Shown: one piece after another, positions 2,258 to 7,474 of the stretch
Layout of the letters: every line of letters starts with the position of its first letter
Numbering within the stretch: the stretch's first letter is position 1
IMG/VR virus record: IMGVR_UViG_3300044946_000064
Coordinates: 1-26,110 of that record
Reading direction: 5' to 3' (one strand)
Length of the DNA: 26,110 bases
Source of the DNA: a virus
The notes under the pieces: generated by a model
What the model saw: the letters and a program-made list of their open reading frames with translations, nothing else
What the model was told of the DNA's origin: nothing
Database searches by the model: none
Translations under genes and position numbers: made by a program

Positions 2258-2694
2258 CTGATCTTTTCTTCCCGTCCGAAGATCACCGCCGCGCGCTGGT
2301 CGCCAAGGTCGAGGCCGGCGGTTTTGCCGCGCTTGATGCTATCGAGCGGATGCAATTTCACGGCTACCGCTACGGTTGGCGCCGGGTGCGCCTCGCCGAC
2401 TTCAGCCAGAAATATGGCTGCGACCCGCGCGGTGACTGGTTCGACGGGGTTTTTGTCAACCAGGTGGTCGAGATGATGACCGGCGGCAAATACAGCCTGA
2501 CACCGCCGCGGCCGGAGCGCCGCCCGGACCCGACACCCGAAGACGTCGCCTATGTCGATCGACGGCTCGCCGAATTCCGCGCGAACCTCGCTGTCGCCGA
2601 GCAGCGCACCGCGACCACGACGCGACGCACCGCGGACCCGCGCGACCTCGCCGCGATCCAGGCCGGGCTTGGCCTTACCGCAACCGAGGAATGA
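2254..2694 (+). CDS. Hypothetical phage protein
   Basis: 146 aa starting on GTG 2254, inside the stop codon of the preceding gene. It is a small soluble protein with an aromatic-rich middle (MQFHGYRYGWRRVRLADF, about 30-47) and a Pro/Arg-rich linker followed by an amphipathic C-terminal helix region. No catalytic motif stands out and I do not recognise the family. The downstream open frame begins on an ATG overlapping this stop (ATGA, 2691), so translation is coupled. Confidence 0.6.
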   Translation: MTDLFFPSEDHRRALVAKVEAGGFAALDAIERMQFHGYRYGWRRVRLADFSQKYGCDPRGDWFDGVFVNQVVEMMTGGKYSLTPPRPERRPDPTPEDVAYVDRRLAEFRANLAVAEQRTATTTRRTADPRDLAAIQAGLGLTATEE

Positions 2695-2912
2695 CCGTGA
2701 CACCGCAAGCCCTAATCGACAAATGGCGTCCGCACCGTGAGGCGATCCGGCCGGGCGAGTGCGACCACCGCGCCGGCTGCTGGGTTATCGACCCGTTTGG
2801 TGCCTGTACGGGGAATGACAAAGGGCCGGGCTGCACTGCCTGCGGCGGCAGATTGCTGGTTCGCGCGCCGCTGGATACCGCACCGCAATTTGAACCCGAG
2901 AGGAGAACAAGC
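2691..2912 (+). other. 74-codon Cys-rich segment open in frame into the PEP-CTERM gene
   Basis: An ATG at 2691, overlapping the previous stop (ATGA), opens a 74-codon segment that runs without a stop into the PEP-CTERM gene. It encodes a small Cys-rich domain, with CDHRAGCW and GCTACGG around residues 24-53, that resembles a little metal-binding or disulfide-bonded module. It reads like a formerly independent small phage gene that has lost its own stop, or the long-start form of a two-product gene. A protein made from this start would have its signal peptide buried 74 residues in and would probably not be exported. Confidence 0.45.
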
Positions 2913-3551
2913 ATGCGTTCCTTGATCATCGCCGCAGCTGCTGCCGCGGCGCTTGCGTCCGCCGGACCGGCGCACGCAACCCTGACGCTTACCCTGACCG
3001 ATAACGGGGTGCCGCAAACCTTGCTCGAAACCACGCCGTCGCCCGGCAACTTGATCGGCACCTTGACCGGTGATCCGAATTTCTCGGACGTGACAATCGA
3101 CATAACCGGGGTGCCGGCGGTGCCTGCACCCGATCTCGGCACTGTTACCCTCAGTGTAACCGGGGCCACCGGTGCGGGTCATACTCTCGATATCACCGCG
3201 ACGCAGACCGGGCTTGCAGTGCCGGCCGGGTTTGCCGGGTTGACGACCGATACTTACAACGGCCTGGTCGGCGCGCCTGGTCCTGTCACCGAGACGATGC
3301 TGGTCAACGGCGCCGTGCTCAATACCGAGACGTTCCCGCCGACGGCGGGCGCCCTCGACGCCGCCTTTACCGATGCCGGTTTGCCGGCGATCGCCAGCAA
3401 TGCCGAACTGTTTGATGCCGCTTTCACCGCCGCGGATCAGGACCTCGAGGCGACGATGGAATTCAGCGGGGTTCCCGAGCCCGCGACGCTTGGGTTGTTC
3501 GCGATAATGCTCCTGGGTCTCGGATGGGTGCGAACCAAGACGAGGGTATGA
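2913..3551 (+). CDS. Secreted PEP-CTERM sorting-signal protein
   Basis: 212 aa from ATG 2913, chosen because AGAGGAG lies just upstream at good spacing and because the first residues form a classic signal peptide: MRS, a hydrophobic Leu/Ile/Ala core, and a cleavage site after GPAHA (about residue 22). The mature part begins TLTLTLTDNG, a beta-rich Thr/Pro protein typical of PEP-CTERM substrates. The C-terminus is VPEPATLGLFAIMLL followed by a hydrophobic span and a basic tail (RTKTRV). That is the three-part PEP-CTERM signal recognised by exosortase/EpsH in hosts that make exopolysaccharide. The product should therefore be exported, then cleaved and anchored or released at the host surface. 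It sits between intracellular DNA-handling genes and has no phage structural motif. It could alter the cell surface (superinfection exclusion) or be a host gene picked up as cargo; the role is inference. Confidence 0.8.
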   Translation: MRSLIIAAAAAAALASAGPAHATLTLTLTDNGVPQTLLETTPSPGNLIGTLTGDPNFSDVTIDITGVPAVPAPDLGTVTLSVTGATGAGHTLDITATQTGLAVPAGFAGLTTDTYNGLVGAPGPVTETMLVNGAVLNTETFPPTAGALDAAFTDAGLPAIASNAELFDAAFTAADQDLEATMEFSGVPEPATLGLFAIMLLGLGWVRTKTRV

Positions 3552-3554
3552 TTT

Positions 3555-4043
3555 ATGGCAAAGACACTGCGGGATGAAATCCCCGACCAATTCGGCGGGG
3601 TCATCAACGAAACCGCACTGCAACGCTACGTCGGGCGGATCGAGGAAAAGCACAACGAGCGCAACGACCTCAACGTCGAGATCAAAGAAATCTATGCCGA
3701 GGCCAAGGACGCCGGCTTTGATACGACGATCCTGCGCGAGATCGTCCGCGAGCGGCAGATGGAGGAGCCCGCCCGCCATTCCCGCTATGCGCTCCTCGAC
3801 AGCTATCGCCGCGCCTTGGGGATGCTCGCCGGCACGCCGCTCGGCGATGCCGCGATGGACCGCGCCGAGGCGATCCATGCCGCGCACCCGCCAGCGGGGA
3901 GGCGGGCGCGCAAGCCGCGATCCTTTGACGAACAGCCGGTGCATCAACCGCGACGGCCCCGCGGCCGTCCGCGCAAGGACGCCACCGAGGCGCTGCAGGC
4001 GGCGCGGTTGCACCTCGGCGACGACGCCGCGGGCACCGCATGA
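3555..4043 (+). CDS. GapR-like (DUF2312) nucleoid protein with C-terminal AT-hook
   Basis: 162 aa. Residues about 20-92 match the GapR/DUF2312 pattern: a coiled N-terminal helix (ALQRYVGRIEEKHNERNDLN), then VEIKEIYAEAKDAGFDTTIL, REIVRERQ and ALLDSYRRALGML. GapR of Caulobacter forms tetramers that clamp overtwisted AT-rich DNA and help replication and topology. Here the domain is followed by a linker and a textbook AT-hook core (RRPRGRPRK, about 133-141), which host GapR proteins of ordinary ~90-residue length lack. That would add minor-groove binding. The gene starts 3 bases after the PEP-CTERM stop. Its stop lies within the first copy of a 22-bp tandem repeat. A phage nucleoid or host-takeover role is inferred. 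Confidence 0.85.
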   Translation: MAKTLRDEIPDQFGGVINETALQRYVGRIEEKHNERNDLNVEIKEIYAEAKDAGFDTTILREIVRERQMEEPARHSRYALLDSYRRALGMLAGTPLGDAAMDRAEAIHAAHPPAGRRARKPRSFDEQPVHQPRRPRGRPRKDATEALQAARLHLGDDAAGTA

Positions 4044-4074
4044 CTGCGCCCTGGGCACCGCATGACTGCGCCCT
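4031..4074 (+). repeat. 22-bp perfect tandem duplication over the gapR-like stop codon
   Basis: The 22-mer starting GGGCACCGCATGACTGCGCC is present twice back to back (4031-4052, 4053-4074), followed by a partial third GGGCA. Each copy holds an ATG overlapping a TGA. The first TGA ends the GapR-like gene. Because 22 is not a multiple of 3, the duplication shifts the frame of anything started at the first copy relative to the second. Confidence 0.9.
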
Positions 4075-4225
4075 GGGCAAAATGGTGGCGGATCAAATTG
4101 CTGCAATAAAATCGCAAGAAATTGCGGCTGGCGCCCCTGCCGTTGCGACATCGTTGCGGTTTTTTGTGGGGCTGGGGAGCGGTTCAGGGACCATAGGAGG
4201 GCCGCCTTGCGATCAGATAAGATGA
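4040..4225 (+). CDS. Small hypothetical ORF after gapR-like gene
   Basis: 61 aa starting on the ATG that overlaps the GapR-like stop (ATGA). It is followed by a 17-codon ORF at 4222-4275 that again overlaps by ATGA, and then by the GTG at 4272 (GTGA), so a chain of coupled starts runs through this stretch. The sequence is Ala/Gly-rich with no recognisable domain. Because the start lies in the tandem duplication, the reading frame may have been altered recently. It may be a real small gene or a decaying one; low certainty. Confidence 0.3.
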   Translation: MTAPWAPHDCALGKMVADQIAAIKSQEIAAGAPAVATSLRFFVGLGSGSGTIGGPPCDQIR

Positions 4226-4271
4226 TGCCGGGAGGTTTACCCCATATCCAGCGGGCTCTGGGAGGGAGCCT

Positions 4272-4358
4272 GTGACCGGTGGATTGCTCGCGCTCGATGT
4301 CGCGACAACGACCGCCTTCGCCACGCTCGGCGAAGTCTGGCCCGGAGAAACCCGATGA
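4272..4358 (+). pseudogene. Truncated copy of the RuvC-like resolvase N-terminus
   Basis: GTG at 4272 preceded by GGGAGGGAGCC encodes 28 aa. Its first 14 residues (VTGGLLALDVATTT) match the start of the RuvC-like protein at 4945 (MTGGILALDVATTT) at 12 of 14 positions. At the DNA level the first 45 bases are about 80% identical. After that the similarity stops and the frame ends on a TGA that overlaps the next ATG (4355). It looks like the 5' end of a resolvase gene left behind when the coiled-coil gene at 4355 was placed between it and the intact copy. It could still serve as a translated leader for the downstream gene. Confidence 0.6.
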
Positions 4359-4945
4359 TGATTCAAAACGGCCGCGTGCTGAGCCGCAACGAGACCCACG
4401 ACCTGAGCATGATCATCAAGGATCGGGCGAAGGTCCTCAAGGCCCACGCCGAGGAACAGGCAGCGCACTGCATCGCCGATTTCGAGAAGAAATTGGCCGC
4501 AGTCTATTCCTGGGATCAAGACGAAATCTGGCAGGCGGCGACCGAGGAGGCGCAGAAAGTCGTCGCCGAGTCCCAAGCCAAAATAGCGGCCCGTTGCGAA
4601 GACCTTGGCATCCCGAAATCGTTTGCGCCGGCGATCGGCATGAGCTGGTCGGGGCGCGGCGAAAACGCGCTCAACTCGCGTCGGGCCGAACTGCGCCGGG
4701 TCGCCAAGACTTCGATCGAGGCGATGATGAAGGCCGCCATCACCAAGATCGAGAAACAGAGCCTCGAACTGCGCACCCAGATTGTTTCCTTGGCGGTGCT
4801 GTCGGACGCCGCCCGCGTCTTTCTCGAAAGCTTGGCCCCTGTCGACGAAGCCATGCGGTCTCTCGACTTCGCCGAGATCGAGCAGAAGTTGGAGCGCGAG
4901 CAGCAGCAACGCATCGTCGATCGCCGGCATTTCGGCATGATCTGA
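4355..4945 (+). CDS. Hypothetical coiled-coil phage protein
   Basis: 196 aa. Start at 4355 in an ATGA overlap with the truncated resolvase copy. The sequence is almost entirely helical and charged, with Ala/Glu/Lys/Gln-rich stretches (KDRAKVLKAHAEEQAAH, AATEEAQKVVAESQAK, QKLEREQQQR), a hydrophobic patch about 130-160 and no Cys-rich or catalytic motif. I do not recognise a named family. It is bracketed by two copies of the resolvase 5' end, which suggests it was acquired as a unit. The next gene begins on an ATG overlapping its stop (TGATG). Confidence 0.65.
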   Translation: MMIQNGRVLSRNETHDLSMIIKDRAKVLKAHAEEQAAHCIADFEKKLAAVYSWDQDEIWQAATEEAQKVVAESQAKIAARCEDLGIPKSFAPAIGMSWSGRGENALNSRRAELRRVAKTSIEAMMKAAITKIEKQSLELRTQIVSLAVLSDAARVFLESLAPVDEAMRSLDFAEIEQKLEREQQQRIVDRRHFGMI

Positions 4946-5598: not shown

Positions 5599-5623
5599 GG
5601 GCGGCCCGGCCGCCCGCTCTTTT
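5599..5623 (+). terminator. Probable rho-independent terminator after the RuvC-like gene
   Basis: A perfect 7-bp GC stem with 3-nt loop (GGGCGGC, CCG, GCCGCCC; 5599-5615) is followed by GCTCTTTT. The U-run is short, so efficiency may be modest. It closes the gap between the RuvC-like gene and the alpha-CTD-like gene, which would then need its own promoter or readthrough. Confidence 0.5.
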
Positions 5624-5636
5624 GCCGCCGGCGCCG

Positions 5637-6116
5637 ATGTCTGACACCGCCGCCGCGCGTCCGTGGCCGATCGAGACGATCGAGCGCCGCCCGGTCGCCA
5701 TCGCGGAACTTGATGAATTGATCCTTGCCCACGAAGCGCTGTTGCACCGGCTGCGCCGGCTACGTCAGCAGCTGATGCCGGATGATCCGCCAGATGATCC
5801 GCCGCCGGATTGTAAGACTGACCCGCTGGTGTGGGATTTGGCGTTCAGCGTCCGGACATTGAATTGCTTCGCGCACCGCGTAACCTGCCGCTTAGTCAAT
5901 CCAGAGGAGCCGGACGTTCATAAGCGGAAAATCAAATGGTATCCTGCCCCGCTTGTTCGACTAAGCGAGGTCGCAGCCTTGTCGCGTTCCGAACTGCTGA
6001 GTATTCCGAATTTTGGGAAAATCTCTTATCGAGAGGTTCACGCCATTTGCGTTCAATATGGTTTTTGGCGGGCGGACGATCGGCGATATGACCCGACGCG
6101 TTGGCGATATGGCTGA
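5637..6116 (+). CDS. RNA polymerase alpha C-terminal-domain-like protein
   Basis: 159 aa. Residues about 68-142 follow the RpoA alpha-CTD pattern: LAFSVRTLNCF (compare the SVRSANCLK helix of E. coli alpha), then VRLSEVAALSRSELLSIPNFGK and SYREVHAICVQYGF, which is the paired helix-hairpin-helix with the hallmark PNFGK turn. About 25 extra residues separate the first helix from the second. Alpha-CTD binds UP-element DNA and activators. A free-standing phage copy could compete with or redirect host RNA polymerase. The N-terminus (residues 7-20, ARPWPIETIERRPV) is identical to the N-terminus of the next gene, the ParB protein, and is encoded in a 46-bp direct repeat. ATG 5637 has no clear Shine-Dalgarno. 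Other helix-hairpin-helix families are the alternative. Confidence 0.7.
   Translation: MSDTAAARPWPIETIERRPVAIAELDELILAHEALLHRLRRLRQQLMPDDPPDDPPPDCKTDPLVWDLAFSVRTLNCFAHRVTCRLVNPEEPDVHKRKIKWYPAPLVRLSEVAALSRSELLSIPNFGKISYREVHAICVQYGFWRADDRRYDPTRWRYG
5652..5697 (+). repeat. 46-bp direct repeat, copy 1
   Basis: This stretch matches 6118-6163 at 44 of 46 bases; the only differences are T/C and G/T near the left end. It encodes the N-terminal ARPWPIETIERRPV of the alpha-CTD-like protein. The two copies are 466 bp apart and bracket nearly the whole alpha-CTD-like coding sequence. Confidence 0.9.
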
Positions 6117-6903
6117 AGCCGCGCGCCCTTGGCCGATCGAGACGATCGAGCGCCGCCCGGTCGACAAGTTGATCCCCTATGCGCGTAACGCCCGGAAACA
6201 CACCGCGAAACAGATTGCGACGATCGCCGCCTCGATCCGCGAATTCGGCTGGACGATGCCGGTCCTGATCGACGAAGCGGACCTGATCATCGCCGGACAT
6301 GGGCGCGTGCTCGCCGCGCCGCAGCTGGACCTGCTCGAGGTCCCGGTGATCGTCGCCCGCGGCTGGACCGCCGCGCAAAAGCGCGCCTATCGCGTCGCCG
6401 ACAATCAAATCGCCCTCAACGCCGCCTGGGACAACGGATTGCTGCGGGTCGAACTCGCCGACTTGCACAACGAGGGCTTTGATCTCGAAATGCTCGGGTT
6501 CGCGACCGCGGACGCGACCGCGCGCGACGATTTCGGGGGTGAGCTGCCGCAGGCGCTGCAACTGGAACCCGCCCGCGAATATGCCGTCATCATGTGCCAG
6601 GACGCCGCCGAATGGGAACGGCTCAAGGTTGCCCTGTCGCTCGTCCCGGTGCGCCGCGGGGGCTACAAAAAGGGTTCGCCGTTTGATGATGTCGGAACAC
6701 AACGCGTCGTCGCCGCCGCGGACATCCTGCGCCTGATCGCAGAGGGGACCGCCGACAATGCTGATCGCCGTTCCAAGCAAAGGCCGCGCCGGCCGCGTGA
6801 CGACTCAGACGGTGCTGCCGTCCGCGACGCTGTTCGTTCCCGCGCTCGAGGTGCCGGCCTATCAGCGGATGGGCGCGCGCCAGGTCGTCGCCGTTCCGGA
6901 TGA
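6109..6903 (+). CDS. ParB N-terminal-domain protein of the DNA-methylase-associated type
   Basis: 264 aa from ATG 6109, whose first codons overlap the previous stop. Residues about 17-100 are a clear ParB/Srx-fold domain: DKLIPYARNARKHTAKQI, IAASIREFGWTMPVLID, IIAGHGRVLAA (about 60-70), then KRAYRVADNQIALNAAWD. This variant is found in prophages, often fused or next to DNA methyltransferases and other base-modifying enzymes. No methylase follows here; instead a glycosyltransferase starts inside the end of this gene. Residues about 157-212 form a second small domain (YAVIMCQDAAEWERLKV to VAAADILRLI). The last ~48 residues, out of frame over the glycosyltransferase start, are low-complexity and Arg-rich, as if an original stop near 6757 was lost by frameshift or mutation. 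Confidence 0.8.
   Translation: MAEAARPWPIETIERRPVDKLIPYARNARKHTAKQIATIAASIREFGWTMPVLIDEADLIIAGHGRVLAAPQLDLLEVPVIVARGWTAAQKRAYRVADNQIALNAAWDNGLLRVELADLHNEGFDLEMLGFATADATARDDFGGELPQALQLEPAREYAVIMCQDAAEWERLKVALSLVPVRRGGYKKGSPFDDVGTQRVVAAADILRLIAEGTADNADRRSKQRPRRPRDDSDGAAVRDAVRSRARGAGLSADGRAPGRRRSG
6118..6163 (+). repeat. 46-bp direct repeat, copy 2
   Basis: Second copy of the repeat, encoding residues of the ParB-domain protein just after its start. The near-identity, including third codon positions, indicates a recent duplication rather than two conserved protein termini. Confidence 0.9.
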
Positions 6904-7474
6904 AATCCGCGGCATCACCGCGACGCGGAACTGGATATTGCGCAGCACCGAGGACCGCCGGGTGGTGATGATCGACGACGACTCGCACTATGCCGGATAT
7001 TCGAAGCTGCGCGAGCGCGACACGATGCGCGTCCGCCTCGACGAGCGGATCTGGCTCGGGGAATTCGTCAAGCTGTTCGATCTGACGGAGCAGCTGTCCT
7101 ATCGCATCTGGGGCGTGGCGACCGACGGCGCGACCCGCTCGATCTATCCCTACTGGCCCTTTCGCTGGCGATCCTACGTTACCGCCAGCTGCATGGGGAT
7201 CGTCAACGACGGACGCACGTATTTCGACGAAAGCTATCCCGTCAAAGAGGATTACGAGCTCTGCGCGCGATGCATCGCCGAGGACGGCGGCGTCGTCTGC
7301 GCGCAGTATATCTATTGGGTCAACCTGCATTGGGACACCGCGGGCGGATGCCGCGACTACCGGACGCAAGCGATGGAGCGCGACTGCATCCGCCGTTTGC
7401 GCCGGACCTATCCGGGGATCATCCGCATCGTCAACCGCAAGAGTCACGGATGGGCGATCGAGATCGCCGCCTGA
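6758..7474 (+). CDS. TET/JBP-associated-type glycosyltransferase (GT-A fold)
   Basis: 238 aa. The N-terminus LIAVPSKGRAGRV, the ITATRNWIL motif (about 53-61), a metal-binding DDD at 73-75 in VVMIDDDSHY, and DESYPVKEDYELCAR (about 157-171) match the glycosyltransferase family that Iyer and Aravind described beside TET/JBP dioxygenases and other phage base-hypermodification genes. Members are predicted to put sugars on modified DNA bases, and less certainly on other substrates. The start at 6758 is fixed by the family N-terminus and produces a 146-base overlap with the ParB gene. The gene's TGA abuts the TGA of the convergent hydrolase gene (TGATCA at 7472-7477). No TET-like oxygenase or thymidylate-synthase homologue is visible in this window, so the acceptor is unknown. 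Confidence 0.7.
   Translation: MLIAVPSKGRAGRVTTQTVLPSATLFVPALEVPAYQRMGARQVVAVPDEIRGITATRNWILRSTEDRRVVMIDDDSHYAGYSKLRERDTMRVRLDERIWLGEFVKLFDLTEQLSYRIWGVATDGATRSIYPYWPFRWRSYVTASCMGIVNDGRTYFDESYPVKEDYELCARCIAEDGGVVCAQYIYWVNLHWDTAGGCRDYRTQAMERDCIRRLRRTYPGIIRIVNRKSHGWAIEIAA

Follow-up and report, generated by a model that had tools for sequence, protein, structure and literature searches.

Glycosyltransferases (GTs) of the TAGT family (PF20691) include the T6-type beta-glucosyl-HMC-alpha-glucosyltransferase, whose name is borne by phrog_842 and which adds a glucose to glucosyl-hmC and is predicted to be a GT-A enzyme (PMC13216743). Known TAGTs act on hydroxymethyl- or glucosyl-cytosine (PMC13216743, PMC13390438), and known TAGT clusters do carry the hydroxyl-making enzyme. 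In fact, Nonlabens phage P12024L has Tet_JBP and a methyltransferase beside its TAGT (gp26-gp28, 2622-4887 of locus L244), a compact trio with no ParB annotated beside it, while KP185 has a thymidylate synthase one gene away from its TAGT. However, 288 of 753 phage genomes hold a TAGT without an alpha-GT or beta-GT, and such "solitary" TAGTs have been flagged as potential novel transferases of unknown role (PMC13216743). Additionally, ParBc proteins accompany phage C5 enzymes, including the carboxymethyltransferase CmoX, although the function of ParB with these methylases was stated to be unknown (PMC12783734). Here, a conserved pair formed by a ParB-fold protein and a TAGT-family enzyme is described, which many unrelated phages carry in a genomic slot where sister phages keep DNA methylases, suggesting that the pair probably marks viral DNA with sugar, although no enzyme that would prepare the DNA for it could be found.

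The analysed window is a 26,110-bp IMG/VR phage record carrying HK97-type terminase, portal, protease and capsid genes. An initial annotation had noted in it a methylase-associated ParB domain directly followed, with overlap, by a glycosyltransferase with a PSKGRAG start and a DDD metal site, without a visible oxygenase or nucleotide-modifying enzyme, and this observation was confirmed. An ATG at 6109 opens a ParB-domain ORF of 264 aa ending at 6903 (+), whose frame also reads from a TTG at 6013, and the GT ORF of 238 aa runs from 6758 to 7474 (+), so that both overlap by 146 nt in different frames, with a Shine-Dalgarno-like AGAGGGG (6741-6747, +; inferred from sequence reading) preceding the GT ATG. 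Two details differ from the initial description, since this overlap is peculiar to the window, being 23 nt in the related loci L003 and L007, and the 5′ end of the ParB gene is disturbed by a ~420-bp insert, absent from L002, L003 and L007. The insert is flanked by a 46-bp direct repeat (95.7%) of the ParB 5′ end (5652-5697 and 6118-6163), and the ORF 5622-6116 joins the old ParB start to an RNA polymerase alpha-CTD-like domain (PF03118, 7e-07). The window also encodes a second, different ParB-domain protein (808-1734; phrog_21315, 2.2e-17) and a GapR-like DNA-binding domain (3555-4043; PF10073, 6.3e-19).

Regarding the GT, the search against the TAGT family that had been proposed beforehand returned PF20691 with 42.2 bits (E 1.2e-10) against a cut-off of 27.5, and phrog_842 was matched at 8.8e-20. 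Among 25 ParB-linked records, 23 were over the PF20691 cut-off, the exceptions being record G014 and Microbacterium phage KaiHaiDragon. In 57 relatives, P6, S7, R10 and G12 of the PSKGRAG motif (residues 6-12; 6773-6793, +) are invariant and K8, G9 and A11 nearly so, whereas D73, D74 and D75 (6974-6982, +), the presumed metal/nucleotide-sugar site by inference from GT-A enzymes, and K163-E164-D165 (7244-7252, +), an inferred candidate catalytic base, are invariant. The dN/dS ratio (NG86, in-house script) was 0.048 for the window against L003 and 0.029 against L007, with a median of 0.028 over 62 pairs (range 0.013–0.511), indicating purifying selection and, together with the motifs, ruling out a chance ORF. 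An AlphaFold2 model built from 57 relatives had a mean pLDDT of 88.0 and a pTM of 0.87, and its top viral structure match was a TAGT (TM 0.82). The initial annotation had stated that clustering with protein- or wall-directed enzymes would count against its reading, and this was not observed, since TAGT was the only glycosyltransferase family given by Pfam, the best-scoring viral structure matches include named TAGTs, and PDB matches are remote GT-A folds, while phmmer and profile searches of solved structures found no real GT homologue.

On the other hand, the ParB N-terminal domain matches phrog_620 (1.8e-47) and the N-terminus of phrog_498 'DNA methyltransferase' (6.5e-45). Although Pfam ParB_N scored below its cut-off (18.6 against 26.3 bits) and the structure model of the protein was weak (mean pLDDT 73.9), a profile of 36 relatives matched solved ParB, Noc and Spo0J structures (E 8.6e-13). 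The C-terminal domain (6547-6744, +; REYaVIMC..EWERLK....VRRGGYKKGS.FD) is the part tied to the GT and is more conserved than the N-terminal part, with mean pairwise identities of 57% and 41%, respectively, over 630 pairs. In the pair L083/L084, the N-parts are 33% and the C-parts 87% identical, which suggests N-domain exchange around a fixed GT-linked domain. A chromosome-partition system was considered and rejected, since no ParA family was matched among the early ORFs scanned, although no dedicated search for ParA or parS was made.

The pair was verified to be a genuine two-gene module. A viral-contig scan with four GTs found 79 loci among 127 pattern matches, and a scan of genome contigs with the GT alignment gave only one, L018 from a Planctomycetota MAG, so that genomic contexts rest mainly on viral contigs. 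With the window, these make 81 GT loci, some of them near-identical copies, of which 74 have the ParB C-terminal domain within 1.2 kb upstream, the other 7 beginning 1–108 nt from a contig end. In the reverse test, the C-terminal domain alone was used, and 282 of 313 pattern matches were relatives, of which the best 80 were kept; 80 of 80 carry the GT, 45 of them by our count on contigs not seen in the GT scan. On one contig, G019 (83,470 bp), two different ParB-TAGT loci (681-1271 and 43068-43658) lie 42.4 kb apart, which could reflect tandem prophages or an assembly join. When ORFs of nine window-like sequences, five marine-type ones and two cultured phages were compared, ParB and GT were the only families shared by at least three of the first and two of the second, apart from a 97-aa shadow ORF antisense to the GT, although this rests on ORFs of six sequences and several sequences are incomplete. 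A third cassette gene was therefore rejected, considering also that gaps between the ParB domain and the GT vary from –4 to 643 nt. The GT is also more conserved than the large terminase, with 66–70% against 51–52% identity in the relatives G003, G004 and G005. A long G/C-rich repetitive tract, read as (A/G)RRGMAGRG-like ORFs on both strands, was seen in another record, G006 (9900-12450 of L015).

The strongest functional clue came from the genomic slot occupied by the pair. Several contigs (the starts of L005, L019, L022, L023, L026, L028, L029, L031 and L046, and G012, represented by loci L096-L098) end at one exact site about 20 nt before ParB (A-CTGATTTTT and variants), while others read through it as GACCGCGCCCCAA followed directly by CTGATTTTT. 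G012 begins there, after seven bases that look like an Illumina adapter end, and ends at ...CACTGAC, and the nine missing bases CGCGCCCCA fit a 3′ cos overhang, an inference that makes G012 a full-length 43.4-kb genome and the only record showing both termini, most others being fragments. Thus, the order in these relatives is cos-ParB-GT-TerS-TerL-portal. A scan with the G012 TerL gave 35 loci, of which 16 have this TAGT and ten have too little upstream sequence (at most 626 nt). Of the other nine, L199 and L205 have ParB plus a C5-cytosine methylase (PF00145; 1.8e-53 and 5.4e-51), L211 a ParB-N6/N4-methylase fusion (PF01555, 5.9e-17), L203 a PF01555 C-terminus just before TerS, and L215 ParB plus a TAGT of another subfamily (8e-45) before TerS, whereas L198, L200, L213 and L216, four of the 25 usable loci, have no recognised enzyme in the slot, although L198 has a weak N6/N4-methylase match further upstream. 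The TerLs of L199, L205, L203 and L211 are 63–75% identical to that of G012, and the ParB N-domains of L199, L205 and L211 are 58–61% identical to that of the window over 127–131 aa. The terminus signature precedes ParB in L211 (GACCGCGCCCC) and L205 (contig start ACTGTTTTTTC), but the exact 12-base motif was absent from several other loci, the window included. The C5 methylases of L199 (1343-2623) and L205 (626-2035) carry an SPPC motif, reported for CmoX (PMC12783734), although the presence of a CmoA gene was not checked. In the window and its three near-copies, the terminase genes are inverted and the cassette is detached from TerS. Nevertheless, methylases and TAGT exchange in one slot behind one ParB type, which is the best evidence here that the GT acts on DNA.

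The pair was also identified in cultured phages. Streptococcus phage Javan291 has ParB (annotated 'DNA modification methylase'), GT, one ORF and TerL in a row, and KaiHaiDragon has ParB, gp85 and GT near the right end of the record, with TerS as gene 1 and TerS/TerL next on the circular map. The KaiHaiDragon GT was found by our profile (1.9e-20) but not by PF20691, and it is directly followed by a UDP-glucose dehydrogenase (46855-48374 of L189; PF00984, 3.5e-15), which hints at a UDP-glucuronate donor in that lineage only. A short tblastn with the C-terminal domain against cultured phages found nothing, since this domain has diverged in both phages, where only full-length ParB profiles match well. 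The proximity to terminase genes in the window-like group, Javan291 and KaiHaiDragon could alternatively reflect a packaging or assembly role, the GT glycosylating a protein (its ParB partner, the terminase or a virion protein) or a free nucleotide, and remote PDB matches do include protein- and polymer-directed GTs, while no DNA-modifying activity has been measured. However, this reading is unlikely, since sister phages hold DNA methylases in the slot, the ParB N-domain is shared with methylases, and the known members of the TAGT family act on DNA. Moreover, the order is kept with a different large-terminase-like protein in the marine group (our reading of a protein cluster that was not scanned) and in the Microbacterium phages, which are lytic and circularly permuted (PMC7302621), making a link to one packaging mechanism unlikely. 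It is also very unlikely that the GT alters host LPS or wall to block superinfection, as phage Gtr systems do. Although it is a phage GT-A enzyme distantly related in fold to TarP and WrtF, a ParB-fold protein is its constant partner, no flippase or Gtr-type gene is shared, Pfam gave no Glycos_transf_2 match, and the pair occurs in Streptococcus and Microbacterium phages as well as in the very different phage group of the window.

The initial annotation left two options, a partner enzyme outside the window or a different acceptor, and had named TET/JBP and thymidylate-synthase homologues in the rest of the genome as what to look for. No oxygenase or nucleotide-modifying enzyme was recognised in the window. 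A first PF12851 search gave no match, controls included, but in the repeated search Tet_JBP was absent from 25 of 25 ParB-linked records, G012 among them, while the control P12024L was positive at 2.8e-29, so that the association in the TAGT name, which the Pfam model does not require, is not fulfilled here. Likewise, the thymidylate synthase family (PF00303) was absent from 25 of 25 records, with 9 of 14 control genomes positive. No modification enzyme besides TAGT was observed among 25 of the 38 Pfam families matched by 101 ORFs of G012, nor among the 11 matches of a rescan of 75 mainly early-region ORFs, and none among 25 of the 37 PHROG matches of the same ORFs. On the other hand, N6/N4-methylase matches were found in 5 of 32 records searched, one of them a MAG, indicating that other modification genes coexist with the pair in four phage records. 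Therefore, the partner outside the window is disfavoured, and the different acceptor is the better option. It is still possible that the GT acts on a hydroxylated base made by a phage or host enzyme that family searches do not recognise, as in classical two-step hypermodification, since known TAGTs act in this way and many ORFs in these phages have no Pfam match, but this is opposed by the negative searches above and by the lack of a third gene shared across phage groups.

The interpretation of the initial annotation, a possible DNA base-modification pair, is supported by these findings, and we propose that the two genes form a self-contained cassette for ParB-guided DNA glycosylation, a reading to which we assign a probability of roughly 0.6 for any base. 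What the computation itself demonstrates is the family, motifs and selection of the GT, the conservation of the pair as a unit in otherwise unrelated phages, the variable N-terminal and conserved C-terminal domains of the ParB protein, the slot exchanged with methylases and the absence of recognisable hydroxylases. It is by inference that DNA is taken as the target, and that the ParB N-domain would bring the enzyme to DNA, the C-terminal domain would dock the GT, and the GT would move a sugar from a host nucleotide sugar onto a base of newly made phage DNA, as a late modification shielding it from host nucleases. No modified nucleoside has been measured, the docking was not modelled, and the sugar, base and site specificity were not identified. 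Since no gene that would make a hydroxylated base is conserved with the pair, the acceptor is, in our view, most likely a base needing no phage-encoded hydroxylase, either unmodified, for example at an exocyclic amine, or host-made. More tentatively, an ordinary, unhydroxylated base could be glycosylated in one step, so that phages would gain glycosylated DNA from two genes without TET/JBP, dCMP hydroxymethylase or a special nucleotide pool, using exchangeable ParB N-domains to choose where. As TAGTs with known activity act on already hydroxymethylated and glucosylated cytosine (PMC13216743), this would be new chemistry. If the acceptor is a canonical base, the pair represents a new route to glycosylated DNA and a compact tool for writing bulky marks on DNA. 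The conserved-C/variable-N design also suggests an adaptor role for ParB, whose function with phage methylases has not been explained. No paper on a ParB-TAGT pair was found in literature searches, which did not cover most subscription papers or the likeliest source, Iyer et al. 2013, which proposed TAGT/JBP glycosyltransferases.

Compared with the T6-type enzyme, the GT described here shares the Pfam family, the predicted GT-A fold, the PSKGRAG-like start and the acidic metal site. However, T-even TAGTs sit with thymidylate-synthase-type enzymes and add a second sugar to glucosyl-hmC, an activity not assayed here, whereas no such enzyme was found in the ParB-linked records and ParB is the constant partner. 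In a 26-row tree, 20 ParB-linked GTs (the window type, the marine type, L018, Javan291 and KaiHaiDragon) fall together (92/90), apart from hmC/TET-linked TAGTs, while L215, also ParB-linked, groups on the other side with Aeromonas/Vibrio TAGTs (98/97), so that ParB pairing may have arisen twice, but long branches meet and the relationship to the hydroxylase-linked enzymes is left unsettled by this tree. The TET/JBP-TAGT clusters, such as that of P12024L, are likewise compact modification cassettes with a GT of the same family, but they contain the Tet_JBP that the 25 ParB-linked records lack. The phage ParB-DNA methyltransferases share the ParB N-domain and, in sister phages, the cos-side slot before TerS, but here the adjacent enzyme is a glycosyltransferase, whose action on DNA is inferred from the slot, so that counting the pair among ParB-linked DNA modification enzymes stays a matter of that inference, and the ParB carries a distinct conserved C-terminal domain instead of a fused methylase or zinc-ribbon-like tail. 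Finally, the pair resembles the solitary TAGTs, since neither an alpha-GT nor a beta-GT was noticed, although these families were not searched for by name; Pfam scans of G012 showed neither. While no partner gene is named in what we consulted of that study (PMC13216743), the present analysis gives such TAGTs a constant partner, a genomic slot exchanged with DNA methylases, a context without recognisable hydroxylases, and cultured relatives.
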